Below, piece by piece: positions 1-47,242 of a DNA stretch of 47,242 nucleotides. Both the position numbers and the translations under genes were made by a program. Origin of the DNA: a virus; the IMG/VR virus record IMGVR_UViG_3300026118_000363, positions 1-47,242 of that record; one strand, given 5' to 3'. Position 1 is the stretch's first letter; each line of letters opens with the position of its first letter. Under the pieces are notes generated by a model. The model was not told the DNA's origin. It searched no databases and worked only from the letters and a program-made list of their open reading frames with translations.

Positions 1-261
1 CTACTTCGTCCGGATGAGTTCAATGTCCATCGAATCGTCAAACACCAGAACCTTGGTGTTCTCCAGCGCCGTTCCTGTTACGCCTGCTTTCCACGATGCC
101 CTGAGCCGCTCGATGGTCTCAAGAGATGGTGCGCCGCGTTTACACTTAATCAGCACAACTTCCACACCATGAGCGTCTTGCGTGGTCACAGGTGTGACCG
201 TCATACCGGTGGTGGCGCCAACCACGCTGGCTAAGGCTTTGAGAGCGTTTCGGCGGTCCAT
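1..261 (-). CDS. Small protein with export-like N-terminus
   Basis: This complete 86-aa reading frame ends with TAG exactly at the window edge. The N-terminus begins MDRRNALKAL and runs into a small-residue stretch, which resembles a twin-arginine (RRxxLK) or short Sec export signal. The rest is a charged domain with no motif I recognise. It lies two bases after the fibre-adaptor-like gene at 264-638 and belongs to that fibre cassette by position. It may instead be a small structural protein with a chance hydrophobic start. Confidence 0.6.
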   Translation of the reverse strand: MDRRNALKALASVVGATTGMTVTPVTTQDAHGVEVVLIKCKRGAPSLETIERLRASWKAGVTGTALENTKVLVFDDSMDIELIRTK

Positions 262-263
262 GA

Positions 264-25855: not shown

Positions 25856-26070
25856 CAGACGAGGCTCGACTGGAAGACGAGATACGCCACGCCGTTATAA
25901 CTGATGTAGCCGCTGGCAATCGCAGGCGTCCCGGATGTGTCGATCTCAAACCAGAATTGATGATTCGTGATGACCGCCGGAGGTCCGAACGGATTCATGT
26001 GCGACGGCTGCACCCGATCCGTCTCGATGGAATCCGTCACGCTGCCGATCTGATCGCCATCCAGAGCCAT
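25855..26070 (-). CDS. Small tail-module protein
   Basis: The 71-aa product has a beta-rich C-terminal half (NHQFWFEIDTSGTPAIASGY) and overlaps both neighbours by one to four bases. It lies between the tape measure and the tail-tip gene, where siphophages often have a small distal-tail subunit. No family is recognised. Confidence 0.55.
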   Translation of the reverse strand: MALDGDQIGSVTDSIETDRVQPSHMNPFGPPAVITNHQFWFEIDTSGTPAIASGYISYNGVAYLVFQSSLV

Positions 26071-29021
26071 CAGCCCGCCCTCTTCGTGGTCTGCACCGTG
26101 GACCGGATGAGCGCTTGCAGGCGAGCGCTTTCAGTCGCCTCTCGCCCGCGCAGATACCGCACCAGTTCGGCGGCGCCGTCATCGCTCCCTGACCCGCCAC
26201 CCACGATGGCAGCAGCGACGTTTCCCTGCATCGCTTCGTTCAGGATGATCTCTCCAGGCGTCAACATCGCCGGCACGGAGTCGGACCCGCGCCGCATAAA
26301 GGGCAGCACGCGGCCACCGCTCGCGAACTGCTGAATCCCATGAGCCGTAACGAGTCCGCCTCGTTTCGCGAAGAATCGCTCGCCGCCACCGAAGGATGGC
26401 AACTGCACCGGATCGACGTTGAACCCGACGTTGATCGTTTTGTGCGTGGGCAGTCCGGTGATGGCGCCGCCAAGGCTGCGCGTGATCGCCTCGGCCAGCT
26501 TCTTGACCTCGTCTACCACGCTCTTGAATCCTTCGCTCATCGTCTGCGCGAAGGTGATCCCGCTGTCCTCGAGGTTTTCGATCTTGTTGCCCGCCGCATC
26601 CGTCAACAGCCCCTGGTCGATCATCGCCTGCAGCATCGGCTTCATCGCCGACGGCACTTCCACGCCCATCTTCACGGCCTGCTTGACGTAGTCGTTGACG
26701 CTCTGGGCCATCCGCGCCGTGATGGCCACAGTGTCGATGCCCGCCGCATTGAGGACCGTCCAGTCCTTAAAGATTTGCTGGGCCTGCTTGTCGAGTTCCT
26801 GCCGCTGGAGTGCTGGCCCCAACTCTTCGATCGTGAACCCGTACCGCTTGGCGGTTTCCATCGCCAGCGCGAGCGCATCCTCTTGGAACTGGAACGCCGC
26901 GTTGAGATCATCAACAGCCTTCTTGTACGCCTCCGGCGTCTTCGCGTCGAGCATGGCCTTGAGCGTCACGCCGGCCGCAGCCGCCTTGCGGTTGAGCGCA
27001 TCCAGCCCGCCAGCCATCTGGACGAATTGCTCGCGGACCGGATTCACCTGCTTTTCAACGCTGCCGAACAACTTGCTGAAGGCGCCGATCAGCGGCCCAG
27101 CCAGTGATCCGATGGCCGCGCCAATCGGACCGGTCATCCCTAACGCCTTACCGATGCGCTCGCCCAGGGTTGAGCCGATCTGCGAACCGATCCCCTTCAG
27201 AGCGCCGAGGATGCCACCGCCACCAGTGAAGGCGGCTGCGATCATTCCCGGTACGCCCTTCAGGACACCCTTCAGACTCTGGCCGAGCGTCTGCACTTGC
27301 TGCTGCACCGGTCCCGTGAACTGAAACGATGCCTCGATGTCCTTAGCCGTCCTGACGACGTCTTCGCCGGCTATCCCGACGTTCTTCAGCTCGTCGGTCA
27401 TGCCCCTGAATCCGAAATTGGCAATGCGCGAGTTCTGCTCGACCTTCTCAACAGCCGCCGCCAGCGGAGCCAACTTCGATTCGTCATACCCGCGCCCGAT
27501 CTTCTGGAGCGCTTCCGGAACTTGGGCGAGTCCGCCTTCGAGTTGCTTAACCTTACTGGTCAGCGCCGCTGCCTCGTCCCGATACCGCTTCGCTTCGGCA
27601 GACGCCTTCGATTGCGCCTTGGTAATTTCTTCATGGGAGCGTGCCAGATCCTTCGATACGACTTCTTCTTCACGGAGCGCTGCGGTCAAGTCTGGAACGA
27701 CGATCCCCATAGCGTTGACTGACTGCTTCCACTTCTCGACACCCTTCGCGGCGTCACCAGTGATCTTTGGCAGGTCTTCTGATTGGCCTCGGAATGTGCG
27801 GATGGCCGCTCCGGCGAACTCCCATGCGGATCCGATGCCTCGAATCAGCGGCAGGATGCCGGACAACTCACCGGCCATCTTGCCGAGCCACGACACAACA
27901 TCCACCGTGACGCCGATCAATTTACCGATCGGCCCAATCAGCCACCGCCCGATGGCCATACCGAACGCCTCGGCATGAATCAGCAGTGACGACAACTGCA
28001 TCTCGAAGGCTTCCGCCTCGGCGGCTTGCTCAGCCGTCCACGGTTCGATGTCGTTTGTCAGCTTGAACGCCGCGGCGAGATCAGGGAGCACGGCCATCAG
28101 TTCTTTGGCCGATTTACCGGTGAGCGCTTGCGCTGTCGCGGCCCGCTCAGAAGGATCCTTAATCCCGACGAGACCATCAGCGATCAGTTGCAAGAGATGA
28201 TCAGGTCCAGCGTCACGCAGTTGTTCCGTCGTGAGGCTCATGGACCGCATGGCCTCATCCCATTTCTTACCGCCTTCGCCCATCTTGACTTGTATTTTGA
28301 AGACAGCATCGGTCAGCGTGCCGAGGTCGCTACCAGCCACCTTGGCCGCATTCTGCAACCGCGACAACGCTGGGACGCTCATGCCGGTCTTGTCGGCCAT
28401 GTCGTCCAGGCCGGCACCGACAGCTGCAGCATTGGATGCGAGCTTAAACGCAGCCGTCCCGATCGCCGCGAACGCGGCCACGCCAGCCGCTGCCGCGAGC
28501 GTGGCGCCGCCGAGCGATTCCGACAACGCGAGCGTGGCAGATTTGGCCGTACCCATCGGATCCGAGATGGCCCGCTGGATGTCGAAGCCACGGACGAAGC
28601 TCTGCCAACTAGATGAAGCTCCAGCCAGCGCATCCTGCTGGTCCGTAATCGCTTTGCGGACCCGCAGCATATCGGCCGGCGCATCTTTCCCTAACGCCCT
28701 GAAGGCATCCAACCCCTTATCGATGGTACGCTTCATCGAGTCGAGGTCGCCTGACATCAACTTCGCGGCGCCACCCACCGCATCCAGACCACGCGCGGCA
28801 TTGACCCCACGGTCTGCCATCCGCTGGTAGTCCTCTGTCACGCTCTTGATCGATGACTCGAGCTTTTCGAGAGACTTCTGCGCAGCCGTGCCGACCGGCG
28901 TGTTACCGAGCTTCGACAGATCAGCGTCGAGACTCTTGGCCTTGACGCCGATCGACGCCAGAGCCTTCTGGATCGATTCGTCGTTGGCGCCGATTTTGAC
29001 GATAAGGGAAGTGATCGCCAC
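26070..29021 (-). CDS. Tail tape measure protein
   Basis: At 983 aa it is the second-largest protein of the window and sits just after the two tail chaperone genes. It is mostly helical: an N-terminal coiled coil (IGVKAKSLDADLSKLGNTPV), a hydrophobic patch (GATLAAAAGVAAFAAIGTAA at about 173) typical of tape measures, MADKTGMSVPALSRLQNAAK, and a second hydrophobic Gly/Ala/Ile stretch near 640 (MTGPIGAAIGSLAGPLIGAF). The C-terminus is Gly-rich with RRGSDSVPAMLTPGEIIL, a motif common at tape-measure ends. It sets tail length and forms part of the DNA channel. Confidence 0.88.
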   Translation of the reverse strand: MAITSLIVKIGANDESIQKALASIGVKAKSLDADLSKLGNTPVGTAAQKSLEKLESSIKSVTEDYQRMADRGVNAARGLDAVGGAAKLMSGDLDSMKRTIDKGLDAFRALGKDAPADMLRVRKAITDQQDALAGASSSWQSFVRGFDIQRAISDPMGTAKSATLALSESLGGATLAAAAGVAAFAAIGTAAFKLASNAAAVGAGLDDMADKTGMSVPALSRLQNAAKVAGSDLGTLTDAVFKIQVKMGEGGKKWDEAMRSMSLTTEQLRDAGPDHLLQLIADGLVGIKDPSERAATAQALTGKSAKELMAVLPDLAAAFKLTNDIEPWTAEQAAEAEAFEMQLSSLLIHAEAFGMAIGRWLIGPIGKLIGVTVDVVSWLGKMAGELSGILPLIRGIGSAWEFAGAAIRTFRGQSEDLPKITGDAAKGVEKWKQSVNAMGIVVPDLTAALREEEVVSKDLARSHEEITKAQSKASAEAKRYRDEAAALTSKVKQLEGGLAQVPEALQKIGRGYDESKLAPLAAAVEKVEQNSRIANFGFRGMTDELKNVGIAGEDVVRTAKDIEASFQFTGPVQQQVQTLGQSLKGVLKGVPGMIAAAFTGGGGILGALKGIGSQIGSTLGERIGKALGMTGPIGAAIGSLAGPLIGAFSKLFGSVEKQVNPVREQFVQMAGGLDALNRKAAAAGVTLKAMLDAKTPEAYKKAVDDLNAAFQFQEDALALAMETAKRYGFTIEELGPALQRQELDKQAQQIFKDWTVLNAAGIDTVAITARMAQSVNDYVKQAVKMGVEVPSAMKPMLQAMIDQGLLTDAAGNKIENLEDSGITFAQTMSEGFKSVVDEVKKLAEAITRSLGGAITGLPTHKTINVGFNVDPVQLPSFGGGERFFAKRGGLVTAHGIQQFASGGRVLPFMRRGSDSVPAMLTPGEIILNEAMQGNVAAAIVGGGSGSDDGAAELVRYLRGREATESARLQALIRSTVQTTKRAG

Positions 29022-29671: not shown

Positions 29672-29717
29672 CCGATGTGACCACGCCCGTGGTCCTGACG
29701 TCATGTCAGGACATCGG
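29672..29717 (-). other. Three-way-junction RNA structure in tail mRNA
   Basis: Three perfect helices stack without gaps: 29672-29678 with 29711-29717 (7 bp), 29679-29685 with 29688-29694 (7 bp, tight loop), and 29695-29699 with 29705-29709 (5 bp). Only one base is left unpaired at the junction. It fills the space between the major tail protein gene and the first chaperone gene. There is no T-run after it, so it is not a standard terminator. It may stabilise or separate the highly expressed tail-protein message. Confidence 0.5.
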
Positions 29718-29741
29718 ACTTATTGCCCGACGACTGAAACA

Positions 29742-30158
29742 CTAGAACGTGCCGACGGTACGAGAGCTAACGCGCAGTTCAACGGTAAACGTCGTGATCC
29801 CGTCAACGCTGGACTGCGGTCCGGTGTAGGACAGGCAGGAGCACTGGCCGGTGATCTTCGTCTGGCCCACAGCAGTGCCACCAGGCCCGTACTCGTAGTC
29901 CAGTCCCTGCTTGCTCTCAATACCAGAGAAGAAGGTCTCGGCAGGAGGAGACCACTTCCCACTCAGGCTGAAGCCCTTCGTGGCAAAGCCAGGGATGATG
30001 TTTTTAATTGGGACAGCAACCCCAGGCTGGAACGTGGTGCCGTCCACCTCGTCCTGATCGCTGGATCCGTCGATGCCGTCGAGGTACGTGCTGATGTCCG
30101 TCAGCACGTTGGCGGCGTTGTCGAGTTTGAAACTGGTCCCGATGCCACTGATGGCCAT
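29742..30158 (-). CDS. Major tail (tube) protein
   Basis: The 138-aa protein begins MAISGIGTSFKLDNAANVLT and shows DISTYLDGIDGSSDQDEVDG, then a beta-rich GFATKGFSLSGKW and ITTFTVELRVSSRTVG. This matches the pattern of short siphophage major tail proteins (DISxYLxxID...DE.D.T.F). It lies just above the chaperones and tape measure, as expected. The gene stands alone between two structured non-coding stretches and has a strong AAGAGGAG ribosome-binding site folded into a hairpin. Confidence 0.82.
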   Translation of the reverse strand: MAISGIGTSFKLDNAANVLTDISTYLDGIDGSSDQDEVDGTTFQPGVAVPIKNIIPGFATKGFSLSGKWSPPAETFFSGIESKQGLDYEYGPGGTAVGQTKITGQCSCLSYTGPQSSVDGITTFTVELRVSSRTVGTF

Positions 30159-32620: not shown

Positions 32621-33686
32621 TGATCTTCACCACCGGTACCGTTGGGGCATTAAGACCGTCCTTGCCATCGCGGCCGCGCTTGACCATCAACCGCCAAGCC
32701 TTCGAGCCTTCGCCGGGTTTCGTGGTCGTCGGCTCGTTGCAATGCCAGCACGATCCGCCAGACGTCACCATCTGGCCGACGTCGTACGACTTGCCGTCCT
32801 GATAGAAGCCTTCATACGACAGACCTGCCGTTCCATCCTTGCCATTGACACCGTCGCGTCCCGGTGGCCCTTGTTCCCCGGCTGGTCCTGGCGTGGGCGG
32901 TCTCGACTCCAGCACCGCCACTCGCTCGCGCAGCGCTGAGTTCTCGCGCAGTTCAAACTTCAGTTCAGCCTTCAGGTCGCCGATCTCTTTGCGGAGTTCC
33001 ACCACCGCCATGTCGGTCGGGCTTGGCCCTTCGGTCCGAGCCTCCAGCGACTTGATGCGGTCCCGCAGATCGTCAATGCCAGCCTCCGGCGGGAGCGCCA
33101 GCACCGGCTGCAGCGCTTTGGCTTCAACCGCCGCGACACGCTCTCGCATGTAATTGAAGTCAGCCACCCGCGCTTCAGTCGCCGCGACACGCTCGAGAAT
33201 CGGCGCGAGGTCAACCTCGACAGGCTCAGGCGGCACGACCGGAACCGGTACCGGCTGGCTCGCCTTCGTCTCCACGACCACCAGCCGATCCCGAACATCG
33301 CGCAGCGATTCCAGCCGCGCCTCGGCGCCGGCCATCCGCTCAAGCAGCGGCGTCAGGTCAGGAATCTCCGGCACATCGAAAGTGGGCAGCGGCCGATCCG
33401 CCTTCGTCTCCACCACCGCCAGCCGCTCGCGCATCGCTTCGACCGAGCCGATCTGCGCCTTGACTGCCGCGATCTCGTCCTGCACTGGCGTCAGGTCTGG
33501 CGCCTCCGGCAGCACCGGCAGCGGGACAGGCTGTGCGGCCTTCGTCTCGACCACCACCACCCGTTCACGGAGCGCATCGACGCCTGCGATCTTTTCTTTC
33601 AGCGCCGCCACGTCAGCCTGGATGGGAGACAACGACGCCTTGATCAGTAGGACCACCTGATCCGCCAACGCTTTGAGGTCAGGCAT
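32607..33686 (-). CDS. Coiled-coil and collagen-like head fibre protein
   Basis: The 359-aa protein has four 46-49-aa repeats of a coiled coil with the core RERVVVVETKA followed by a Pro/Val-rich linker (residues about 35-235). A collagen-like stretch (GPAGEQGPPGRDGVNGKDG, about 268-286) and a small Trp/Cys-rich end domain (YQDGKSYDVGQMVTSGGSCW, about 293-312, like carbohydrate-binding modules in fibres) follow. It ends with a GRDGKDGL segment. Being between portal and connector genes, it is probably a trimeric fibre attached to the head. Confidence 0.65.
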   Translation of the reverse strand: MPDLKALADQVVLLIKASLSPIQADVAALKEKIAGVDALRERVVVVETKAAQPVPLPVLPEAPDLTPVQDEIAAVKAQIGSVEAMRERLAVVETKADRPLPTFDVPEIPDLTPLLERMAGAEARLESLRDVRDRLVVVETKASQPVPVPVVPPEPVEVDLAPILERVAATEARVADFNYMRERVAAVEAKALQPVLALPPEAGIDDLRDRIKSLEARTEGPSPTDMAVVELRKEIGDLKAELKFELRENSALRERVAVLESRPPTPGPAGEQGPPGRDGVNGKDGTAGLSYEGFYQDGKSYDVGQMVTSGGSCWHCNEPTTTKPGEGSKAWRLMVKRGRDGKDGLNAPTVPVVKINGAG

Positions 33687-35088
33687 AGATCAAGGCCTCA
33701 TCTACAGCTTTCGAATGGAGCAACGCGCCAAAACTCGCGGCCACTTCTTCGGCGTCGTCCTCTTCATCCGGGGCGACAGGCTGCGCGGCCGGCGCTGGTT
33801 CTGGCTTCGCAAAGGGATCATTCGCATCGCGTTTTGCTAGAGCGGCTAACGAGTAGTACTGCTGCTGCACCATCGGCGAATCGCCGCCGGCCACCGGACC
33901 GAGTGCGTAGTACCGCTTCCGGGCTTCGTTCGGCGACATGCCGCCTGATCCGATCCCATCCTGAGCCGCCTTGGCTTTTGCCTCGGCATCCATCCAGATC
34001 AGATCGTCAGGGTCAAACTCCGTCCCGTAGCTGTTCTGGAACTGCTTACCCAGGCCCAGCCCTTCATCCAGCGACAATTCCATCTGGAACCAATGCGACT
34101 GCAGCGCACCAGAGTAGTACTTCTGGATCACCGGTTCGATGTTGGCGTACGGCGGCGGCGGACCGATGTTGACGATGTACGGATCGACGCCGTACGTCGA
34201 GCACACCACGCGCGCCGTCATCTCCAGCTGCTCGACCAGTTGCAGATCCACGGCATTCCACGCCATGCCCTCGTACTTCAACCCGTCACCGAGCACCGCC
34301 ACTTTGCCTACATTGTCGCCGGTAAAATTCGTATCCCAGTATTCCTTCAGCCGCTGCGCCGTCTCATCGTTGATGATCCCTGGCGCCGTCAGTACACCAC
34401 CCGGAATAGAGCCGTTGGAGAACAGCTTGCTGGAATTGTTCTGGATCGCCAGCCCCTGCCGCGCCGCCAACGCGCACGCGAAGATCGGCGAGAGGCCAAC
34501 CAGCGGATGAAACAGGCAATTCATCCGATCGTGGATAATCTCGCTGGCCGGTACAGTGACCACCTCTTGTGGAAGTCCACTGAGATCGTCCCGCTTCAAC
34601 TCGTAGTAGACCGCGCCATCCTGCGACACCAGCGGCGTCACCCGGAGCGGATCCAGCACGTACATCGACGTCACCACCCGCCGTTGGTCCCTAGCCTTTA
34701 GCACGTACGTATTACCGCTATTGAGCTTCGAAGCGGTCCACGTCTCTTTGAACTGCGCCGCATTCTGATACCGGTTCGGCTTCCGCAGCACTGGCGAATA
34801 CGCGGGATTCTCCACCGGATTCCAGATGCCGTTGCTGTCTTCCTCGACCAACCGCAACGCCACCTTCCCGGTGTCGTTCATGATGCGAGTGGTACAGGCG
34901 AAGACGGCGCTGAAGGACAACGCCGTATCCATCCTGATCTCTTCGTTGCGCTGCCACGCCCCGGTATAAGGCTCCCGAATCGACAGAGGCCACCAGCCCC
35001 CGCGCCCGCTCAGCGGCTGCAAGGGGATCTGCTTCTGCGCCAACTGCAGATCCGTGGTACGCCCGATCGTCCAGGGTCCGATCTGCAC
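33679..35088 (-). CDS. Portal protein (HK97 family)
   Basis: The 469-aa protein shows family marks in order: LSFSAVFACTTRIMNDTGKV near residue 56, NPAYSPVLRKPNRYQNAAQF, NGNTYVLKAR-type strand, IIHDRMNCLFHPLVGLSPIF, then FSNGSIPGGVLTAPGIINDE, VLGDGLKYEGMAWNAVDLQL and the C-terminal GGMSPNEARKRYYALGPVAG. The acidic Pro-rich tail is usual. It forms the dodecameric ring at one capsid vertex for DNA packaging. Its order relative to the capsid gene is unusual: here the protease-capsid fusion lies upstream of the portal. Confidence 0.9.
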   Translation of the reverse strand: MQIGPWTIGRTTDLQLAQKQIPLQPLSGRGGWWPLSIREPYTGAWQRNEEIRMDTALSFSAVFACTTRIMNDTGKVALRLVEEDSNGIWNPVENPAYSPVLRKPNRYQNAAQFKETWTASKLNSGNTYVLKARDQRRVVTSMYVLDPLRVTPLVSQDGAVYYELKRDDLSGLPQEVVTVPASEIIHDRMNCLFHPLVGLSPIFACALAARQGLAIQNNSSKLFSNGSIPGGVLTAPGIINDETAQRLKEYWDTNFTGDNVGKVAVLGDGLKYEGMAWNAVDLQLVEQLEMTARVVCSTYGVDPYIVNIGPPPPYANIEPVIQKYYSGALQSHWFQMELSLDEGLGLGKQFQNSYGTEFDPDDLIWMDAEAKAKAAQDGIGSGGMSPNEARKRYYALGPVAGGDSPMVQQQYYSLAALAKRDANDPFAKPEPAPAAQPVAPDEEDDAEEVAASFGALLHSKAVDEALIYA

Positions 35089-36796: not shown

Positions 36797-38719
36797 TTAC
36801 GTTCCATTGTAGCTGGCTGCGCTGATGTAGGTTACAGCCGCCGTTCTTGCACGGATCCACGTAATCATTCGCTCAGCACGCAAACCGACGAGGTTCCTCT
36901 GCCATAGGGAAACCAAAACTGTCGTCGCATCCGATGGGTTGGAGGGCGCGGAATCCATCTGAATGCTGGCCTCGCGGCTGACGTCGATCTGCACGCCGCC
37001 TTCGTCCGCGAAGAGGATGGACGGTGCGTGGACGAGGATGACGCGGTTGCCGACGTTGTTGCTGACGATCACCGGGATGCCCATGATGGAGCCGCCATCG
37101 CGGGACATGCCGGGGAAGAGCGGCTGGCCGAGGGCGTTGAGCGAGAGACCAAGGCCGAAGGCGTTGGAATCGCTCATGAGCCACACCGAGCCGTCGAGCG
37201 GAATGTTGGCGGCGGTGAAGGTGGCCACGCGAGCAGCGAGGTCCGCTCTGGCTGCGGCGCCGGTCACGCCAGATGCGGCTGCAGTGGCGGCGCCGTTGGT
37301 GATGGATGCTGGGTTCACGTTGGCCACGGCTGCGACAGCCGGATCAACGAGCTGTGTATCGAGGAAGGCACCCATGCCGGCGATCATCTCTTCGCGCACC
37401 GTCGCTTCGGCGGATGGCGTGGAGAGTCGCACGAGTTCTTCGGTCAGCACGATGATGCCCGCCGCCTTGGCGAAGGGTACCGTCACCGTGGCGAAGGCTG
37501 CGCTGGTCACAGGCTTGGCGTTGCCCTGACCGACCCACGAATAGGTACCGCCGCCGGTCTGTGACGGGACTGCGGTATTGAACGGTACCTGACGGAATCC
37601 AGGCACGCGCCCGATCAGCGTCCGCGGCCGGAGCAGCTCAAGAAACTCGTTTACGGCGGTCTGCGTCGGAGCCAGCGGTCCGGCCCAGGTGGCGTCAGTC
37701 GTGGTGCCTGCGGCCACTGCCGCCTTGGTGTGCCAGTTGATCGTGTTCTCGACCATCGTGGCAACTTCAGGAGTCGAGTCCGACCACGCCTTCGCGCGGC
37801 TGATGGCCTGATACGAGTCGCCCTTCGCCGAGGCCAGTGCCATCGCGAATCGGGTGAAGGCCGTACCCTTCGGCACAATCGGCGTCACCGTGATGCGAGG
37901 CAGGTTGCCGCCGCGCTGCTCAGATGCCACGTCTGCCTTGGCCGTCGGCTCGATGCGGGTAGCGGTGACAGCCAGCGTCTTCTCGAGCTTCCGGAGGCGC
38001 GGGAGATGCTCATCGATGGCATCAACCTCGCTCTCAAGCGTGGTGTATTCCTCGCGCTCTGCTTCGCCCAACGTCGAGTTGTCCGACTTCGTCATGATCT
38101 CCGTCATGCGAGCGGTTTTGGCGGCGCGGCTGTTTTCAAACTGGGTGATCTGTTCAGCTGTGGTCATGGGACGCGCGTCTTTCTTCACGCGCAAGGGGGT
38201 TGAAGTGTCCCTGGTGCGGGACGGATCCAGGCCAGTCGCGGCCAAATCGGGAGCGTCGATAGACTTCAGAATCGCTAGCGTGGCGTCCTGATTCGCAGGT
38301 ACCGTGACTAGGCTTAATTCCAAAATCTCGGTTTCGAGGAAGCGCAGCCCGCCAGACTTCAGCGGTTCAATCGCGTTGTTGACGACACGGAAGCCAATCG
38401 AGACGCCTCGGATGAGCTTATGCAGCACCGAGTGCCACGCCCGATCCACCTCGTCCTTGACTGCTCCCGGCTCATCAATGATCGGAAGTTCCGCCTCGAA
38501 GTCGATCCCCTTCTTGGTTGGCTTCTTGAATCGAGCCACGCCAACAGGCGATTCCTTCTTGTGATGGAGCAGTAAGGGGAGTTCGGGCGGGAAGGAGGCG
38601 CCGAGCGGTTCGAGAATGTCGCCCTGCCGATCGGGCGAAGGCGTGGTCGCCGTGCCCTTGATCAGGCGCCGACCTTCATCGACAGATTTGATGGTTAAAA
38701 GGCTGTATGCACGGTCCAC
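36797..38719 (-). CDS. Prohead protease fused to HK97-type major capsid protein
   Basis: The 640-aa protein has two parts. Residues 1-155 match the S78/U35 prohead protease: LLLHHKKESPVG with catalytic His 52 or 53 and IRGVSIGFRV with Ser 106, followed by a LETEILELSLVTVPAN pattern. After a helical scaffold-like region (about 185-255) comes the capsid part: LPRITVTPIVPKGTAFTRFA, NEFLELLRPRTLIGRVPGFR, GQGNAKPVTSAAFATVTVPF, KAAGIIVLTEELVRLSTPSA and IDVSREASIQMDS near the end. The fusion implies that one precursor makes, matures and cleaves itself. The GTG start at 38719 lacks a good ribosome-binding site and abuts a hairpin. Confidence 0.9.
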   Translation of the reverse strand: MDRAYSLLTIKSVDEGRRLIKGTATTPSPDRQGDILEPLGASFPPELPLLLHHKKESPVGVARFKKPTKKGIDFEAELPIIDEPGAVKDEVDRAWHSVLHKLIRGVSIGFRVVNNAIEPLKSGGLRFLETEILELSLVTVPANQDATLAILKSIDAPDLAATGLDPSRTRDTSTPLRVKKDARPMTTAEQITQFENSRAAKTARMTEIMTKSDNSTLGEAEREEYTTLESEVDAIDEHLPRLRKLEKTLAVTATRIEPTAKADVASEQRGGNLPRITVTPIVPKGTAFTRFAMALASAKGDSYQAISRAKAWSDSTPEVATMVENTINWHTKAAVAAGTTTDATWAGPLAPTQTAVNEFLELLRPRTLIGRVPGFRQVPFNTAVPSQTGGGTYSWVGQGNAKPVTSAAFATVTVPFAKAAGIIVLTEELVRLSTPSAEATVREEMIAGMGAFLDTQLVDPAVAAVANVNPASITNGAATAAASGVTGAAARADLAARVATFTAANIPLDGSVWLMSDSNAFGLGLSLNALGQPLFPGMSRDGGSIMGIPVIVSNNVGNRVILVHAPSILFADEGGVQIDVSREASIQMDSAPSNPSDATTVLVSLWQRNLVGLRAERMITWIRARTAAVTYISAASYNGT

Positions 38720-38745: not shown

Positions 38746-38782
38746 GACGCGCGTCTATTTTCTAGGAGGGAATTAGGCTGGA

Positions 38783-38950: not shown

Positions 38951-38984
38951 CGTTTCCTCTACTGATAAGTCCAGACGCGAAACA

Positions 38985-39647: not shown

Positions 39648-39727
39648 TAGCGATTCAGTAGCCCCCGATCGTGGCGTGCTCACATCGAGTACTAAAACAA
39701 GACATGAGGGACACCACGAAGGGAGAA

Positions 39728-39937
39728 CTACCTAGCCGGACGCGATCCGGCCGGCTGGGCGCTACCCAGCAGGCTTCGCAACAGAAGTGGTGGCAAACAC
39801 TTCTGATGGTAAATCTGCGGCGCTCTTGCAATACCGCGCCTGTTAAATGGATACGTCACTGTCACGCCCATCGTGTACAACTCAATGGGTTTACGGCAAC
39901 GATAGCAGACGACGTGGCTGATGAGTGATTTTAGCAT
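39728..39937 (-). CDS. Small Cys/His protein
   Basis: The 69-aa frame begins MLKSLISHVVCYRCRKPIEL and has QIYHQKCLPPLL, so CxxC and HxxC could bind zinc. Its ATG follows the methyltransferase TAG directly. The last part overlaps a 6-bp hairpin (39735-39740/39746-39751) that may be the end of the transcript. The coding call is modest because the C-terminus is Arg/Pro-rich. Confidence 0.45.
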   Translation of the reverse strand: MLKSLISHVVCYRCRKPIELYTMGVTVTYPFNRRGIARAPQIYHQKCLPPLLLRSLLGSAQPAGSRPAR

Positions 39938-40462
39938 CTAGCGCGTCCCTTTCCGTGCGACCGCGTAGATGTCTGCGCCTTCGACCGTGATCGTCTTGTG
40001 CGTAAACGATCGCAGCCACGTCTTCAGCTCAGCTTCTGACACACCGTGATAGTACTCGCCAGGATGCAGCGGCCCGCCATCAATCCCTGAGTGCGTGAAC
40101 CGCAGCGGATTAGCCGCGGTCAGGATCAACACCCCGGCAGGCATCAGGATCCGATGCGCCCACGCACAGAGACTGCGTGGTTTCTTGGCGTGCTCGAGGA
40201 CTTCGCAGCAGACAACACAGGCGACACCCTTGCGGTTAAAGAGACGCTTGGCGGTCTCGCGCGGATCCATGTCCAGCACATCGCCGACGAGATCGACGCC
40301 ATCGCCAGGATAGAGATCGATGGAGGCGTACGGCCCGATGTCCGCAAAGAATGGCCGGACGGTGCCGTTGATGTTTCTGCCGCCGATTTCAAGCACTGGT
40401 CCAGGCTTGATCGGCTCCCGTGTCAACGCCTTGCGTACGAAGTTACTAGCCGCTTCGTGCAT
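39938..40462 (-). CDS. SAM-dependent methyltransferase (class I)
   Basis: The ATG at 40462 overlaps the zinc-ribbon gene as ATGA, and the longer frame is a shadow. The 174-aa protein has PVLEIGGRNINGTVRPFFAD (motif I, SAM site), YASIDLYPGDGVDLVGDVLD (acidic loop), VACVVCCEVLEHAKKPRSLC (motif after strand 4) and MPAGVLILTAANPLRFTHSG. This is the Methyltransf_11/23-type small-molecule or sugar methylase fold, not a DNA methylase. Placed next to a GT2 gene, it may methylate a sugar or other surface group. Confidence 0.75.
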   Translation of the reverse strand: MHEAASNFVRKALTREPIKPGPVLEIGGRNINGTVRPFFADIGPYASIDLYPGDGVDLVGDVLDMDPRETAKRLFNRKGVACVVCCEVLEHAKKPRSLCAWAHRILMPAGVLILTAANPLRFTHSGIDGGPLHPGEYYHGVSEAELKTWLRSFTHKTITVEGADIYAVARKGTR

Positions 40463-40749
40463 CAGAGTTCGATGACCTTCTCGCAGCCGTTGCAGAATGC
40501 CGCCTGCGTGTACACCGGTCGCAGGTCCGTCTGAGGCGAGCGGCCGACCACCGTCCAGCGGCACATCCACTCGACGTACTTCGTAGCCGACGAGATCGTA
40601 AACGTCGATCCGCAGGCTGGGCAGGTCTTCGGAACGTCGGAGCGGCCCATTACTGGGCCACCCGCTGCATCGGTTCCGCCTTTCCGCCGTGAGCCTTCGC
40701 GTATGGTGTCCGCGATTTCCCGGAAGGCCTTCAAGGTTGCGTCGGTCAT
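40462..40749 (-). CDS. Zinc-ribbon protein, first gene of glycosylation/capsid unit
   Basis: The 95-aa product begins MTDATLKAFREIADTIREGS and has TCPACGSTFTISSATKYVEW then MCRWTVV and FCNGCEKVIEL, a four-Cys ribbon plus extra Cys. Its ATG has AAAGGGGTGA upstream and lies about 16 bases after the predicted start of promoter D. It overlaps the methyltransferase. The function is unknown. Confidence 0.6.
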   Translation of the reverse strand: MTDATLKAFREIADTIREGSRRKGGTDAAGGPVMGRSDVPKTCPACGSTFTISSATKYVEWMCRWTVVGRSPQTDLRPVYTQAAFCNGCEKVIEL

Positions 40750-40771
40750 CAGTCACCCCTTTCAAGGGTTA

Positions 40772-40800
40772 AGAATAACCGAACCGCTTGGCCTTGTCAA
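40772..40800 (-). promoter_or_regulatory. Sigma70 promoter D with related operator core
   Basis: On the minus strand TTGACA (40795-40800) and TATTCT (40772-40777) are 17 bases apart. The spacer carries AAGCGGTTCGGTT, whose complement holds AACCGCTTGG, exactly the core of promoter C in the opposite orientation. Unlike the other copies it leaves a short leader with a ribosome-binding site. It would drive the units from 40749 downward. Confidence 0.6.
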
Positions 40801-40813
40801 GCCCCTTGAAACC

Positions 40814-43471
40814 CTAGGAAATCTGCACGGAATGCCCACGCTCAATGGCCGACCGGTGCGACACATCCCGGCTCAACTGCCGCACGACTGCCGCCTTATC
40901 GTTGCAGAAGATCTGCGCATCATGCCTGCCGCGGGACAGACTGACATAGGCCAGCCGCTGATTCACCAGCGCTTCCGGTGATCGGCCCGTGTCGATATGC
41001 AGCAGCACGCGATCTGCTGTTTGCCCCTGTGCGCTGTACGACGTCACCGCGTACCCGTAATCGAGATGCGCGTACTCCTTCAACCGGAACCCGACGCTGC
41101 GTCCTGATTCGAGCTTGACCCGCATCGATGATGGCGTCATGGCTGCAACCGTTCCAAGCTGGCGATTCGACACCTTCTTGTCGGTGTACGGTGCCGTGAA
41201 CTGGATCCGATCCCCCACCGCGAATGATCGTTCCTGCGGCCGGTAAACGCTGGCTGTTAATCGTTTCGGATCGTAGGTCAACTCGCGCCCGGTCTCGAGC
41301 CTCACAGTCAGCAAGTTCTGCTTCGCATCCGCCTTGATCACCGTGGCGTAGTCTCGCGCCTTGACGCCATGCACCGTGCTCGTCTTCGCATACCGCACCA
41401 CATCGCCCGGTTCGTACTTCGCCGCCCAGGCACGATCAGGTCCGGTCAGATCCTGCCGTGGAACCAGCACCTGCGTGGTGTGCGCCTTCTCCCGTATCGC
41501 GCCCGTCTGAGTCAGCGCAGTATGGATCGCCTGATTCAACTCGGTCCGAGCCTTGTTGTCGGGCGCTACGATAATCGTGCCCTTAGGCTCCGAGACGAAA
41601 GCCTGTGCGACCGCGGCCAACCGGTCCGATTCGCGCGGTACCTGATGCACGCGCCCCATGTCGTCAAACGCCCTGAGCGCGGCCGCGGTTTCACCCTTCG
41701 CCAGTTGCTCAACAGCCTGACGGTATGCCGGATCTGCCTGCCTCACAATCGTGTCGATGCGCGCCGTCTGCACGCCGGCCTCCTGTAGTTGCTCATAGAT
41801 CCGGCCAGCTTCCACGCTCTGATGCTGCCGCACATCGCCCACCAGCAGCACGCGATCGTCCTTACCCAGCGTCGTCAGGAACTGATGCATCTGCACCGTG
41901 CTACTCAGCGAAGCTTCGTCCAGCACGTATAGGTGCCGTCCTGGCTGGCGCTCGTCTTGGAGATGCCGCTGCAGCGTCTGGGATTCGATCCCTGACGTCG
42001 CCAGGACCTGCGCCGCTCTCGACGTTGCGGCCACCCCATGCACCTGATACTGCTCGCGCTCTGCAGCCTCTTTGACCACGGCTAGGGCTGTCGTCTTCCC
42101 GCCGCCGGCCACCCCTTCTAGTGCTTGCACTGTGTCGCGATTGGCCAGCACCTGCGCCAACGCAGCCCGCTGGCCGGCATTCAGGTGCGGCGCCTCGACC
42201 ATCTGGGCTAGTGGCTGCTGCTGGCCCTTCCCAGCCTGCATGGCCTGGATGGTTTCACGCTCGAGCCGCACCATCTCTGGCGTGGTAAAGGCTCTGGCTG
42301 GTGCCGTGCCGTTGGACCGCTGTAGAAGGTCGCATGTCTCCACGCGCCGTTCCATCTCTGCCTTCAGCGGTGCCACCGTGGCAAGGCCCATCGTCCGGAC
42401 CAGCGCATCACGCATGATGGCCCGCTCGTCTACAACGGCTGAGCGCTCAATATTCCGTTCCGTGGCGTACGTGATGGCGGTCTTCACCAGTTCGCCGCGG
42501 TCCGGTATCGCCTGCTGTCCTCGCGCCTGTGCGGCCGCAACAGCCTTCGAGGCTTGATGTCCAAACTGCGCCGCCATCTCCTGATGCTTCGCTTGCATCG
42601 CGTCGTGCGCGTGCTTGACCTTGGCTTCGCGCGTCTGCAGGGCGATGGCATGGGACGCTGCCGAGCCATGCAGTTGCGCCTTCTCGAGCGCTTCCTTGAT
42701 CTGTTGCGACCTCGGCGAGCTGGCCTCCATGTACTCGGCTGAGATGCCGCGGATCTCCGGCACGTCGCGCTTATGCCCGCCGCGATCAATCTGGTAGCCC
42801 AGCGCCCGTAGCCTGCTGGCGAGCTCAGCCCGATAGACGGCTGTGGCGTACGGCTGGGACTTGTACAGTTCTCGCGGTTGCAGCGAGCGCATCCGCCCGT
42901 CCGCAAGCCGCGTCATGTTGAACAGGACCGCATGCGTGTGTATCTGGGGCGCTGCATACCCTTGGACAGGTCTACTGCTGTCGTGCTCGAAGGTAACGCC
43001 CACCATCTGTCGCGTGGTCTCTGGCACATGCGCCCCGCCGACTCGCGCCTGTGCGTGGCGCTCCAGCTCCTGCAACGCCACCTGTACGGCTTCCCGATGC
43101 GCCTGCACAACACGCGAATCACCACCGACGAGACCCACAAGCGAGACCGACTTCGGCGCAGAGAAGGTAGCATCCCAACCCGCACGATGCAGCATCGGAT
43201 CGATCCGCTTCCCGGCCTCATCGACGTAGGAGCCTGACGCCTGGATGCGGATCAACTGCTCGCCTGTGATGGGATGCTTGCCCTCGGCCAGCCGTGCCAT
43301 CTGCTCGAGGTTCACATCACCAGACAGGCCGAAAGATGCGGCCAGCGCACCCCGCCACTGGCCCTTAATGTCGGCACCCGCGGAATAGTAATTCTCGGCA
43401 GAGTTGCTGTATTCTTGCTGGTGATAGGCCACTAACTGCTTGGCCGTTAACGGGTTAGAGATTCTCAGCAC
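40814..43471 (-). CDS. MOB-F relaxase-helicase (TrwC/TraI type)
   Basis: The 885-aa protein nicks one strand at an origin of transfer and unwinds DNA for conjugation. The relaxase part (1-300) has Tyr 16, 21, 28 and 29 as candidate nicking residues, WDATFSAPKSVSLVGLV, FEHDSSR (His 163) and QIHTHAVLFN (His 178, 180), the three-His metal site. The helicase part has a Walker A EGVAGGGKTTALAVV (about 450), LYVLDEASLSSTVQM and a C-terminal YAVTSYSAQGQTADRVLLHI (motif VI region). Length is near R388 TrwC (966). It starts with GTG at 43471. No relaxase of this kind is expected in a normal tailed phage; here it pairs with the coupling protein above it. Confidence 0.93.
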   Translation of the reverse strand: MLRISNPLTAKQLVAYHQQEYSNSAENYYSAGADIKGQWRGALAASFGLSGDVNLEQMARLAEGKHPITGEQLIRIQASGSYVDEAGKRIDPMLHRAGWDATFSAPKSVSLVGLVGGDSRVVQAHREAVQVALQELERHAQARVGGAHVPETTRQMVGVTFEHDSSRPVQGYAAPQIHTHAVLFNMTRLADGRMRSLQPRELYKSQPYATAVYRAELASRLRALGYQIDRGGHKRDVPEIRGISAEYMEASSPRSQQIKEALEKAQLHGSAASHAIALQTREAKVKHAHDAMQAKHQEMAAQFGHQASKAVAAAQARGQQAIPDRGELVKTAITYATERNIERSAVVDERAIMRDALVRTMGLATVAPLKAEMERRVETCDLLQRSNGTAPARAFTTPEMVRLERETIQAMQAGKGQQQPLAQMVEAPHLNAGQRAALAQVLANRDTVQALEGVAGGGKTTALAVVKEAAEREQYQVHGVAATSRAAQVLATSGIESQTLQRHLQDERQPGRHLYVLDEASLSSTVQMHQFLTTLGKDDRVLLVGDVRQHQSVEAGRIYEQLQEAGVQTARIDTIVRQADPAYRQAVEQLAKGETAAALRAFDDMGRVHQVPRESDRLAAVAQAFVSEPKGTIIVAPDNKARTELNQAIHTALTQTGAIREKAHTTQVLVPRQDLTGPDRAWAAKYEPGDVVRYAKTSTVHGVKARDYATVIKADAKQNLLTVRLETGRELTYDPKRLTASVYRPQERSFAVGDRIQFTAPYTDKKVSNRQLGTVAAMTPSSMRVKLESGRSVGFRLKEYAHLDYGYAVTSYSAQGQTADRVLLHIDTGRSPEALVNQRLAYVSLSRGRHDAQIFCNDKAAVVRQLSRDVSHRSAIERGHSVQIS

Positions 43472-43499
43472 AGCCCTAAAAATAATTCTAAATTAGGTG

Positions 43500-43528
43500 T
43501 TGACAAGCAAACCGCTTGGGTTTATGAT
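43500..43528 (+). promoter_or_regulatory. Shared-motif sigma70 promoter C (leaderless)
   Basis: TTGACA (43500-43505), 17 bases, then TATGAT (43523-43528), with the ATG 7 bases later at 43536. The spacer contains AAACC-GCTTG-GGTTT, a perfect 5-bp inverted repeat, and CTTGGGTTTA matches promoters A and B. It sits between the divergent relaxase and this small gene, so a bound regulator could affect both. Confidence 0.7.
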
Positions 43529-43535
43529 TCTTCTC

Positions 43536-43742
43536 ATGAACAACACACACAACGTCACCGCCGACCTGACGAAGGAACTCGAAATCGTCCGCACCATCAA
43601 GTCCCTACTGGTTGAACGGGACGCCATCAAGGCCAAGTTCGATTGCAGCGATGCATCATGGCAGGCACTGTTCGCTGTCGAAGCGAAGATCAATGCTGCT
43701 GGCGGAATGCACCTCATCGGAACCACCTACAACGAAGACTAA
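43536..43742 (+). CDS. Small helical protein between relaxase and coupling genes
   Basis: The ATG at 43536 is preferred to an earlier in-frame one that lies inside the promoter. The 68-aa product MNNTHNVTADLTKELEIVRT is acidic and helical (SLLVERDAIKAKFDCSDASW). It has no ribosome-binding site and the promoter places the transcript start at the ATG. Its TAA overlaps the coupling-protein stop on the other strand by two bases. It breaks the usual coupling-relaxase pair and may regulate transfer. Confidence 0.55.
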   Translation: MNNTHNVTADLTKELEIVRTIKSLLVERDAIKAKFDCSDASWQALFAVEAKINAAGGMHLIGTTYNED

Positions 43743-45394
43743 TCCGTTACCAGCGGTGGCAGGGCTTCCACAGCCTGCCGCCGCGGCACCGGAGGCCGAG
43801 CCACCAGTGCCGGCTGCACCGCAGGTCGCTCCACATACGGGAACCGCAGCGGCGTCACGCGGTTGCCCACCTTTAGGTACCCCGTCAGGTTCGCCAACCC
43901 GCTGATCTCGCTGGGCAGCACAAGCGGCTCCACCTGTCGCTCAAGCCGATACGTCCACGTCCGCGTACGCGCCCAGCCGTCTTGTTGGCTGGGCGCCAGC
44001 CGCTCCTGCTCCACCTCGCCGATGGTCTTCGAGGCCCACTCTGCCGCCTTCGCATCGCTGGCTCGCAGGAAGATCTTGGTGGCCGGCTGCGACAGCATCG
44101 TCTCGGCGTCCTTGCCGTACCGGGATTCCATCTGCGCCCGTCCCTGGAATCCGATCACCATCGCCAGTTGCGACTTGCGCCCTTCCGTCACCGCCGTATG
44201 CAACTGCGGCAACTTGTTGAGCGTCGAGAGTTCGTCCACCGCCAGCCATGTCTTGCGCCCGTCCGGATGGTTCATCAGGCGCAGGATCAGCGAGTCGAGC
44301 CAGAGCGTCTGGAGCGGCACCAGCCGCGCTCGCGTCTCAGCCGTGCTGGTGATGAAGATCCAGCCGCTCCGAGTCGTGGCCCATTCCGCCGCGCTCCATC
44401 GTCCTACGCTTTGCTGTGGTGTCGGACAGAGTTGCAAGGTATCCGCGACAAGGTTCAGCGAGGCCAGGATCCCGCTTCGCTGGGCAGGCGTCCGCGACAA
44501 GATGGCGGCATGTGGACTGCCAGCGATCTGCTGGTCCAGCGCATCCTCATTCGTCAACCACGCCACCAGTTGTTGTGCTGTCGGATCGAAGGTGAGCAAG
44601 TGCGCGAAGATGCCGCGAGCGCTCTCTGTGAAGAAGGTATTACTCTCGTACGGCCGCGGTGGAAACAGCGCCGTCGCCAGCGTCAACGCCTCGACGTCGT
44701 TCAGGATCTCATCCCCAGGCTTCCAGTAGGGGCATCGTGCATCGACCGGATTCAGGATCACATCCCCACGTTCAGGCCGGTAAAACCTCGTCACGTATTC
44801 CAGCGCCGGATCGTAGACGATGGACGTCTCGTCCCGCTCTGCCACCGTCTCGAGGATCTCCGAGATAAGCGTAGATTTGCCGGTCCCGGTGTCGCCGGCT
44901 AGCAGGATGTGGCTCGTCTCGAGCGCTCGCGGAATCACGACCGGTGGCCCGCTCACCTGCCGGAAGGCGATCCCGTCGGCGCCCTTCGAGAAGGTCCGCG
45001 CCGTGATGCGCTCTGCGCCCTTCAACCTGCGCCCAACGCGCCGCTGGATGGCCTGCCGTCGGTCCACCGGCAGCGCTGCCACCACGAAGAGCACCAGCAA
45101 TCCTGCGCCCCAGTAGAGCGGAGGCTGGATCAATTCCGTGACGAACAGCCCGCCGTACAGCTCGTCTCGCAGGAGATCCCGCGCAGGCACTGTGCGCTTC
45201 GGCATCCAGCCGACATCGGCTAGCAGCGAGTGCCGCAGGTACGTGCCGAGGTACGCCCGCTGGATCGGCGCCATGCTCGCAAGGTAGAACCAGACCGCTG
45301 CAACAGTCGCCATGACGCCGAGACCGAGCGCCGACAGCGTCCAGACTGGCCAGATGGACATCCACCGGCCAGCCGTGGCATTGCGTCCGTTCAA
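43739..45394 (-). CDS. Type IV coupling protein (TrwB/TraD/VirD4 family)
   Basis: This inner-membrane ATPase should bring the relaxase-DNA complex to a type IV secretion channel. Two membrane spans come first (PVWTLSALGLGVMATVAAVW and LYWGAGLLVLFVVAALPV). Then come LLAGDTGTGKSTLISEIL (Walker A), SIVYDPALEYVTRFYRPE, DVILNPVDARCPYWK, TWLAVDELSTLNKLPQLHTA (Walker B), VTEGRKSQLAMVIGFQG and EISGLANLTGYLKVGNR, all TrwB-type marks. I take the TTG at 45394, which overlaps the methyltransferase stop; the ATG at 45361 is the alternative. No channel genes are in the window. Confidence 0.9.
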   Translation of the reverse strand: MNGRNATAGRWMSIWPVWTLSALGLGVMATVAAVWFYLASMAPIQRAYLGTYLRHSLLADVGWMPKRTVPARDLLRDELYGGLFVTELIQPPLYWGAGLLVLFVVAALPVDRRQAIQRRVGRRLKGAERITARTFSKGADGIAFRQVSGPPVVIPRALETSHILLAGDTGTGKSTLISEILETVAERDETSIVYDPALEYVTRFYRPERGDVILNPVDARCPYWKPGDEILNDVEALTLATALFPPRPYESNTFFTESARGIFAHLLTFDPTAQQLVAWLTNEDALDQQIAGSPHAAILSRTPAQRSGILASLNLVADTLQLCPTPQQSVGRWSAAEWATTRSGWIFITSTAETRARLVPLQTLWLDSLILRLMNHPDGRKTWLAVDELSTLNKLPQLHTAVTEGRKSQLAMVIGFQGRAQMESRYGKDAETMLSQPATKIFLRASDAKAAEWASKTIGEVEQERLAPSQQDGWARTRTWTYRLERQVEPLVLPSEISGLANLTGYLKVGNRVTPLRFPYVERPAVQPALVARPPVPRRQAVEALPPLVTD

Positions 45395-46074
45395 CTCGAC
45401 ATCTCCAATGGAAGCGCTTCCTGCCGTAGACGTCTCACGGCCATCTCGCAATAGCGTTCTTCTAGGTCAACACCAACCGCCGTGAGTCCTAAACGCTTAG
45501 CAGTGGCGAGAGTCGTTCCGGACCCCATAAACGGATCGAACACAGACCGAGCCGAAGGCACCATCCCAAAACACCACTCAATCAAGGCTTCAGGTTTTTG
45601 CGTCGGATGCTCGCGGTACTTTCCTCCTGCCGTCTCCGCTTTACTGCTCAACGTGAACTTCATCAACCGCTGATCTAATGATGTCCACGCCAGCTCTCCG
45701 TGCGAAAAATTCGTGGTGTGTTCGAACAACTTGTCCCAGAACAACCATCCGCGAGAAGGCGGCAGCATGTCGGCAAAATAATTACCGCCCCAGATAATGT
45801 GTTGACGTGCTACAGCTAAAAGTGCCGCCATCAGATCAGGCGCAGGACGACTATCGTCCCAGGCTCCAGACTCATATTTAGGCCCGAACTTATAGGTGTT
45901 AGGACGGCTGGGTTTCGTGCAATGAATAGCACGCGCACAGTCGATCCCGTAGGGCGGATCAGTGAGCAGAAGATCGAACGGCTTATCACCCCAATGTAAT
46001 CCCAACGACTCAAGTACGTCAGCCGCATCGCCGTGATAAATCGTGATCCCGGCGTGCTCGTAATACGGCCTCAC
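45391..46074 (-). CDS. DNA adenine/cytosine-N4 methyltransferase (paralogue)
   Basis: The GTG at 46074 overlaps the RHH gene as GTGA. The 227-aa enzyme has ITIYHGDAADVLE, LLLTDPPYGIDCAR (motif IV), HPTQKPEALIEW and VFDPFMGSGTTLATAKRLGL (motif I), the same frame as the enzyme at 8608-9243. The insert after motif IV is longer (IHCTKPSRPNTYKFGPKYES), so the target may differ. By eye the gene is AT-richer than its neighbours, hinting at separate acquisition. It separates the RHH and coupling genes. Confidence 0.85.
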   Translation of the reverse strand: MRPYYEHAGITIYHGDAADVLESLGLHWGDKPFDLLLTDPPYGIDCARAIHCTKPSRPNTYKFGPKYESGAWDDSRPAPDLMAALLAVARQHIIWGGNYFADMLPPSRGWLFWDKLFEHTTNFSHGELAWTSLDQRLMKFTLSSKAETAGGKYREHPTQKPEALIEWCFGMVPSARSVFDPFMGSGTTLATAKRLGLTAVGVDLEERYCEMAVRRLRQEALPLEMSS

Positions 46075-46331
46075 GGCTGCCCATCCCGGTACTGCCGCAC
46101 CCGCTCGCGCGTGATCGGAATCTGCGCCGACAGATCCGCGCCGACGTTCAGTACTAAGCGTTCGATCAGTTCCATACGGCGCAGGATCTCGGCCTCAAAC
46201 GTCTGCCGCTCCAGCGCTCGATCCAGCGTCTCTCTGACCCATTCAGACATCGGCTTCGCGCCGGCAGCGTCGAGGTACCGCGCGTACTGCTCCGCATTCG
46301 CCTTCGTCGTCACCGAGATTGATCGTTTCAT
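46071..46331 (-). CDS. Ribbon-helix-helix relaxosome accessory protein
   Basis: The 86-aa product begins KRSISVTTKANAEQYARYLD, a short N-terminal strand, then AGAKPMSEWVRETLDRALER as helix-turn-helix of a ribbon-helix-helix fold, and a helical tail (ILRRMELIERLVLNVGADLS) for oligomerisation. In R388 the order is trwA-trwB-trwC, and this gene occupies the trwA position, so it probably binds the origin of transfer and represses the operon. The match is by fold and place, not by sequence identity. Confidence 0.7.
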   Translation of the reverse strand: MKRSISVTTKANAEQYARYLDAAGAKPMSEWVRETLDRALERQTFEAEILRRMELIERLVLNVGADLSAQIPITRERVRQYRDGQP

Positions 46332-46547
46332 TTACTTGGGTGTCCAGCGCCACTCACGCGGTGCATTTGATGGCGGATCACAAAACGTATTACAACTGCA
46401 CATCTCCATTCCATCACCGTGTATGCAGTAGCCGAGACCGTGACACATATCGTCGCAGCACGTCAGAATCCATCCGTCGCCGCCACACCGATCACACCCG
46501 TCGTCGTCTGGGTAGAAGTCGTCAGGCTCATCATCGAATGTCGGCAT
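46332..46547 (-). CDS. Cys-rich zinc-finger protein
   Basis: The 71-aa protein has an acidic start (PTFDDEPDDFYPDDDGCDRC) and then the Cys series GGDGWILTCCDDMCHG, GYCIHG and MEMCSCNTFCD. The CxxCxGxG-like start resembles DnaJ-type zinc fingers. Its TAA directly meets the RHH start codon. The role is unknown; it belongs to the transfer unit by spacing. Confidence 0.6.
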   Translation of the reverse strand: MPTFDDEPDDFYPDDDGCDRCGGDGWILTCCDDMCHGLGYCIHGDGMEMCSCNTFCDPPSNAPREWRWTPK

Positions 46548-46586
46548 CGAGCGTGCCTTTCCTAATGTTTACAGGTATCTGATCGG

Positions 46587-46650
46587 CAACCTTCCGCGAA
46601 TTTACTCAGCCTTCCGCAGTTGCCCTGCGGCAACCCCGGCTGGGGGTGCC
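46587..46650. other. Candidate origin of transfer (oriT) region
   Basis: The gap between the Mom-like gene and the Cys-rich gene holds two 11-bp direct repeats, CARCCTTCCGC, at 46587-46597 and 46607-46617, spaced exactly 20 bp. Next come two inverted repeats that share an arm: TTGCC/GGCAA (46620-46624/46629-46633) and GGCAACCCC/GGGGGTGCC (46629-46637/46642-46650). Repeat sites for an RHH protein next to an inverted repeat upstream of the trwA-like gene are the usual oriT layout. A nic site is not recognised, though GGTGCCTGTATT (46645-46656) bears some likeness to the R388 region. Confidence 0.4.
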
Positions 46651-46675
46651 TGTATTCCAGAAATCCCGGCGCGCA

Positions 46676-47242
46676 CTATGCGCCGATCCGGCCAGCGGTT
46701 GACGAAACACCATCGGTTGAGGCGAAAGCCGCTGCCGGATGTGGCGGTTCATCAAAGAGCGGCGCCGATACAAATGCTTTCACGGGCGCAGGCATTCGAT
46801 CAGGCGTCAGTTGCATCGCCCACAGTCCGTCTTTGGTGTACCCGACGTGAACGAATCCAGCTGCGAAATAGCAATGGCCCCATGTCTGACGGCCATGAAC
46901 CATCCGAGCGCGAACCTTTTTAGGATCGATAAATGTCACCATGCCGAGATCGGGAATGTCGGACCACTCGGCACGGGTGGCTGCTATCGCTTCGCGGATC
47001 ATGTCGCTAGCGATTCCAGTGCTCTCGTTTCTGAACATTGAGTTGATCCACGCCCCTGGCCATGCGTGCTTGACGTACTCAGGAAACGGCCACGATGTCA
47101 CCCACAAGGCGGCGTCCTGTTTCAGCACGACGCAACGCCCAGGCGGCACGAACTGAGGCGAGCCTATCTTCTGACGGTTGTAGTGCCGATCTGCCAGCGG
47201 CAGTGCATCCACATCGGCACGATGTGACAGCGTCCAGTTCAT
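46676..47242 (-). CDS. GNAT/Mom-like phage protein
   Basis: The 188-aa protein starts at the window edge with ATG. It has LPLADRHYNRQKIGSPQFVP near the start, FRNESTGIASDMIREAIAAT, LGMVTFIDPKKVRARM and YFAAGFVHVGYTKDGLWAMQL. This order (HY.R, S..LIR.A...T, D..KV, G..Y.AGF...G.T) is like the acetyltransferase-fold Mom family that modifies phage DNA adenines, but sequence proof is missing. I know close relatives only as hypothetical phage proteins. It may help DNA escape restriction. Further sequence upstream of the window might extend it. Confidence 0.55.
   Translation of the reverse strand: MNWTLSHRADVDALPLADRHYNRQKIGSPQFVPPGRCVVLKQDAALWVTSWPFPEYVKHAWPGAWINSMFRNESTGIASDMIREAIAATRAEWSDIPDLGMVTFIDPKKVRARMVHGRQTWGHCYFAAGFVHVGYTKDGLWAMQLTPDRMPAPVKAFVSAPLFDEPPHPAAAFASTDGVSSTAGRIGA

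Follow-up and report, generated by a model that had tools for sequence, protein, structure and literature searches.

Relaxase, coupling ATPase and head-tail genes in the window

The 47,242-bp IMG/VR virus record IMGVR_UViG_3300026118_000363 (the window) carries conjugative DNA-processing genes directly beside the head and tail genes of an HK97-type phage, and forms part of a larger circular element that also encodes a VirB-type mating channel. The relaxase-helicase gene (40814..43471, minus strand) encodes an 885-aa protein of the MOBF (TrwC/TraI) type that matches the Pfam families TrwC (7e-80) and AAA_30 (2.4e-50), scores 221 bits against the NCBIfam MobF cut-off of 100, and aligns by phmmer with R388 TrwC (1OMH, 9.8e-36). 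It unites the features that define MOBF, namely a TrwC relaxase domain with a three-His metal site and a fused SF1 helicase. Upstream on the same strand lie a 570-aa TrwB/TraD-type coupling ATPase (type IV coupling protein, T4CP; 43739..45451; Pfam TrwB_AAD_bind 1.1e-72), an N6/N4 DNA methyltransferase (45391..46074; Pfam N6_N4_Mtase 9.3e-17) and an 86-aa ribbon-helix-helix (RHH)-like protein (46071..46331), a putative TrwA-like accessory factor. The latter matches no Pfam or PHROG family and weakly resembles the gene that directly precedes the T4CP gene in plasmids of Acidobacteriota (8e-4 against a set of 32 proteins). The order accessory gene–methyltransferase–T4CP–relaxase is followed, on the same strand, by capsid, portal and tail genes. 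These matches bear out the original prediction, read from the DNA of the window, of a MOBF relaxase, a TrwB-type ATPase, a methyltransferase and a small accessory gene beside a head-tail module.

The relaxase had also been credited with Tyr and three-His motifs. The metal-binding triad H163, H178 and H180 is intact in the alignment. At the tyrosine positions, Glu20, followed by Tyr21, occupies the position of the first tyrosine of R388 (Y18), and Y28 aligns with Y26. Since the aligned Acidobacteriota plasmid relaxases, one of them on a plasmid typed conjugative, share the same Y16 and Y28, the alignment indicates that the glutamate is a clade trait and not a loss. The element resembles R388 trwABC in its accessory–T4CP–relaxase order and in relaxase-domain homology to 1OMH, and differs from it by the inserted DNA methyltransferase and the Glu at the Tyr18 position. 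R388 is not known to carry phage genes. Between the relaxase and T4CP genes, an ORF of 81 aa (43497-43742, plus) runs in the opposite direction. It resembles an insertion, as the relaxase and T4CP genes overlap directly in a second species (contig L022, below).

The phage genes, all on the minus strand, include a 640-aa prohead protease–major capsid fusion of the HK97 fold family (36797..38719; phrog_617 1.5e-138; Pfam Peptidase_S78 and Phage_capsid), the portal protein (33679..35088; phrog_2271 3e-111) and a 983-aa tape measure protein (26070..29021; phrog_9483 1.7e-11). PHROG matches further identify the adaptor Ad1 (32303-32620), a neck1/tail completion protein (31558-32004), the major tail protein (29742-30158) and a tail protein/chaperone (29266-29634). 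Fibre-type genes are also present in the window.

A circular element with its own mating channel

A relaxase search of IMG/VR returned two further contigs with 100% protein-level identity to the window, G001 (3300026089_000299, 16.8 kb) and G002 (3300005719_000013, 62,894 bp). With zero mismatches, positions 1-29792 of the window correspond to G002 33103-62894, and positions 29673-47242 to G002 1-17570. The ends of G002 carry an exact 120-bp direct repeat, and the window spans that join with one copy (29673..29792). The overlap with G002 at both ends of the window, together with the single repeat copy at the join, makes the element circular (or circularly permuted), with a length of 62,774 bp. 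Full-element assembly, proposed earlier as a check, therefore places head, tail and relaxase genes on one circular molecule.

The 15.5 kb of the circle absent from the window (G002 17571-33102) contain the mating channel. On the module strand, G002 18226-28751 encodes VirB11, VirB8, VirB6, two VirB5-like proteins, VirB10, VirB9, VirB4, VirB3 and VirB2. Pfam matches comprise VirB11/T2SSE (1e-47), VirB8 (1e-11), TrbL (3e-7), TrbI (3e-41), CagX (1e-32), VirB3 (4e-8) and TrbC (1.6e-5), and VirB4 was assigned by TIGR00929 (4e-87). Relaxase, T4CP, VirB4 and channel subunits, the gene set of a self-transmissible element, are thus all encoded on one molecule. The original prediction had found no type IV channel genes, which is true of the window and false of the element, and the helper channel that it invoked is not supported: the circle encodes its own VirB2-6 and VirB8-11, which rules out helper-dependent mobilisation as the only route. 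Because its own channel is encoded, the element looks self-transmissible.

A helix-turn-helix (HTH) regulator and an RHH-like gene lie between VirB2 and the large terminase gene TerL (G002 30314-31843; phrog_9 3e-174), which is followed by the small terminase gene TerS (G002 31983-32417) and an HNH nuclease (G002 32712-33143). These last three genes lie directly beyond the first ORF of the window (1..261, minus), whose base 1 is G002 33103. The flank search suggested earlier therefore yielded terminase and type IV secretion system (T4SS) genes and no integrase: tyrosine and serine integrases and resolvases (PF00589, PF00239) were absent from a six-frame search of the whole 62.9-kb record, as was ParA, and no plasmid Rep was recognised in the ORFs scanned. 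The element unites terminase genes with those for an HK97 capsid, a portal and a tail, which is the gene content of Caudoviricetes. Neither the replication and partition genes of a phage-plasmid nor the tyrosine or serine integrase of an integrative prophage or integrative and conjugative element were recognised in these scans.

The first base of the window falls on a stop codon and the last on a start codon, both of minus-strand genes. As the window ends coincide with gene ends, a virus-calling pipeline likely trimmed the record, mistaking the neighbouring genes for host, and an artificial join is not needed to explain them. Toward VirB11, the window holds an unknown module gene (46332..46547, minus) and a phrog_24928 gene (46676..47242, minus) with which it stops. 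Just outside, beside VirB11, an ORF (G002 17567-18415, minus) encodes a putative lipoprotein with a lipobox-like SAAC motif, which could be a VirB7-like or entry-exclusion lipoprotein.

Elsewhere in the window, a DUF1376 primosomal-like replication gene (9894-10703, minus) and RecT (11579-12631, minus) were identified. A glycosyltransferase-2 gene (38985-39683, minus) and a methyltransferase gene (39938-40765, minus) lie between relaxase and capsid; genes similar to this pair sit between TerL and VirB2 in the second-species contig L100. Three DNA methyltransferase genes belong to related PHROG families (6238-8031, 8608-9516 and 45391-46074, minus). Two contigs, L018 and L019, are 99.6-99.8% identical to the circle and represent natural microvariants of the element; the final 272 bases of L018 do not align to it.

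Module-phage junctions in a second species and origin of the module

In another dataset, contig L101 (3300006881_000188) carries TerS-TerL-VirB2-3-4 joined as in the circle, at 100% identity. A diverged second species is represented by L022 (3300037071), with T4CP-TrwC-capsid, and L100 (3300037070), with TerL-VirB2-VirB3-VirB4-VirB9-VirB10, so that both module-phage junctions are conserved in it, as judged from these gene orders. Protein identities between the two species are 78% for TrwC, 69% for T4CP, 69% for the capsid, 80% for TerL, 75% for VirB4, 85% for VirB9 and 44% for VirB3. The genes compared have no internal stops, and dN/dS, a rough ratio here given the high dS, was 0.109 for TrwC, 0.163 for T4CP, 0.165 for VirB4, 0.088 for VirB9, 0.136 for TerL, 0.179 for the capsid and 0.34 for VirB3. 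Sequence comparison thus shows conjugation and phage genes alike to be under purifying selection. GC content is 60.5% both in the module and in the rest of the circle; a recent insertion of the module is therefore unsupported, GC being a weak test.

Related capsids were found at 78 viral loci, 52 of which cover the interval from the end of TerL to the start of the capsid gene. In these 52 relatives the terL-capsid gap measures 6-1,688 bp (median 262) and never holds a module, whereas in the element it spans 21,266 bp (G002 9048-30313) and contains the whole module. Read plainly, these sequences suggest that a conjugation module entered the terL-capsid interval of a phage from this family. The closest named HK97-type phages in which protease and capsid are fused, Rhizobium phage RHph_X2_26 (68.5 kb) and Pseudomonas phage PAJU2, have capsids 42% identical to that of the element and share TerL, TerS and portal with it, and soil relatives in IMG/VR reach about 70% capsid identity over full length.

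The module probably came from a conjugative plasmid of Acidobacteriota type: gene order is collinear, most genes have one-to-one homologues, and the relaxases of the element and of Acidobacteriota plasmids group in a single clade (support 100/100). The closest such plasmids, Granulicella tundricola pACIX903/pACIX905 (typed MOBF/MPF_T) and Acidisarcina polymorpha pACPOL1, share the order VirB2-3-4-9-10-5-6-8-11–accessory gene–T4CP–MOBF, and their relaxases are 42-48% identical to that of the element (48% for a Granulicella plasmid). Unlike the element, they carry TrfA, RepB primase and ParA, and capsid and terminase genes are absent from the stretches examined. VirB4 and VirB9 share just 26-32% identity with these plasmids, which indicates that the module has long been separate from them.

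A more distant contig, L093 (3300015024_000305), may be a third hybrid of phage and conjugation genes, from a separate lineage that integrates. Its positions 1-14101 bring together, within 15 kb, a T4CP (50-52% identical to that of the element), a MOBF relaxase (50%), an integrase-like and an HNH-like ORF, and TerL (44%), with an AbiEi/AbiEii-looking pair, read from ORFs, after the relaxase. Alignments of VirB9 and VirB4, used to scan viral sequences, revealed no new lineage. Among genome contigs, a relaxase-alignment profile found no matches and a capsid-alignment profile only two relatives, a contig of a Gemmatimonadetes metagenome-assembled genome (MAG) and Caballeronia. The TrwC relaxase is absent from both genomes, and 150 genomes of the MAG's phylum contained a single relaxase, 36% identical.

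Two predicted routes of transfer on one genome

Comparable combinations proved rare. A collection of 50,697 phage records contained no match to the T4CP and one weak match to the relaxase, on an unverified faecal contig, in line with the expectation that relaxases are rare in tailed phages. Three unverified human faecal 'Bacteriophage sp.' records (MT836143, MT836721 and MT835635), taken together, match T4SS families in Pfam but none for phage structure, and look like bacterial mobile-element contamination. A related capsid is also encoded in 24 plasmid records, of which 23 have been typed as non-mobilizable. We found no tailed phage that encodes a mating channel of its own in the collections and literature searched, in which subscription journals and preprints are thinly covered. 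Phage-plasmids (P1, SSU5 and similar) likewise combine virion genes and plasmid-type functions on one circle, and two P1-like members carry mob or oriT (PMC10879196); they differ from the element in being defined by replication and partition genes, and a mating channel of their own is undescribed in the literature examined. Transfer of the streptococcal 'conjugative prophage' Phi1207.3 is reported to satisfy the operational definition of conjugation, in a paper that makes no mention of a relaxase and leaves the transfer mechanism to be elucidated (PMC4260502).

We consider it likely that the element is a tailed, HK97-type phage of soil bacteria whose 62.8-kb circle, with its MOBF/VirB-type module, makes it also self-conjugative. 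Its morphology is probably that of a siphovirus and its hosts are probably Acidobacteriota. The dual-route idea of the original prediction, virion and conjugation on one element, is strengthened by this gene content. None of the refuting conditions named with it came about: the molecule is a single circle, a diverged second species retains both junctions, and the catalytic His residues are intact. In a donor cell, the relaxase and the small accessory protein would nick the circular genome at a putative oriT, the T4CP would dock it to the VirB channel, and one strand would pass to a neighbouring cell and recircularise there. Alternatively, TerS/TerL would package the same genome into virions, and the HTH and RHH-like regulators that lie immediately upstream of virB2 may decide between the two routes. 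The element can be described as a phage-plasmid-like hybrid, with a fair chance of being a class of its own.

Several points weigh against this reading. Both the virion and the transfer route are predicted from gene content. VirB2 scores slightly below the Pfam cut-off, the VirB5 calls draw on location, on N-termini that resemble signal peptides and on a weak likeness to the Granulicella gene at the corresponding place, and VirB1 and VirB7 were not found in the element. An oriT search by inverted repeats returned short repeats only, with no recognised nic site and nothing convincing. Among the scanned ORFs, neither Pfam nor PHROGs (25 of 61 families listed) revealed lysis genes, which may be divergent. 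A single assembly yielded the part of the module between VirB11 and mid-VirB4 (G002 17.6-26.6 kb), the contigs at 100% identity may come from one site or from re-assembly of the same reads, and the second species consists of two contigs from two datasets that are assumed to belong to one element.

The lack of recognised lysis genes would also suit a conjugative plasmid that took up genes for head, tail and packaging but has ceased to produce phage, or a phage decaying into a plasmid, as P1-derived plasmids do when they gain mob/oriT and lose phage genes (PMC10879196). We regard this as unlikely: the genes for structure and packaging are undamaged, with dN/dS values that indicate purifying selection (TerL 0.14, capsid 0.18), no plasmid replication or partition gene was found (ParA being absent by six-frame search), and the genes identified outside the module are phage-type. 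The position of the module, inside the late packaging-to-capsid region and on the same strand, could instead point to a T4SS that serves the infection itself as a pilus or secretion device, for instance in superinfection exclusion or effector delivery, and not in genome transfer. This is doubtful given that the His-triad relaxase and the T4CP are DNA-transfer parts and are strongly constrained (dN/dS 0.11 and 0.16). An assembly chimera, or a prophage adjoining an integrated conjugative element, could draw on the single assembly behind the middle of the module and on the end shared by the window and G001 (G002 17570), but is very improbable and largely refuted, since the circle lacks an integrase, GC is uniform, the window ends point to trimming, the TerL-VirB4 junction recurs in another dataset, and a second species, with mostly 69-85% protein identity, keeps both junctions at dN/dS of 0.09-0.18 (VirB3 0.34).

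Phages and conjugative elements are usually classed apart by their mode of movement, and passage between the classes has been described as conversion, with phage-plasmids shedding phage genes and acquiring mob/oriT (PMC10879196). If the element is a self-conjugative tailed phage, both routes would be held stably by one element, in two diverged species and under selection. This would give it access to host ranges set by contact and not by a receptor, to entry as single-stranded DNA, and to transfer that the donor survives. We think it somewhat more likely than not that it belongs to a stable lineage of dual-mode tailed phages, overlooked since pipelines trim conjugation genes as host or plasmid. 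Because the window ends at gene boundaries and its T4SS side was cut off, this may be a blind spot, and virus databases may contain further elements of this kind that have gone unnoticed.

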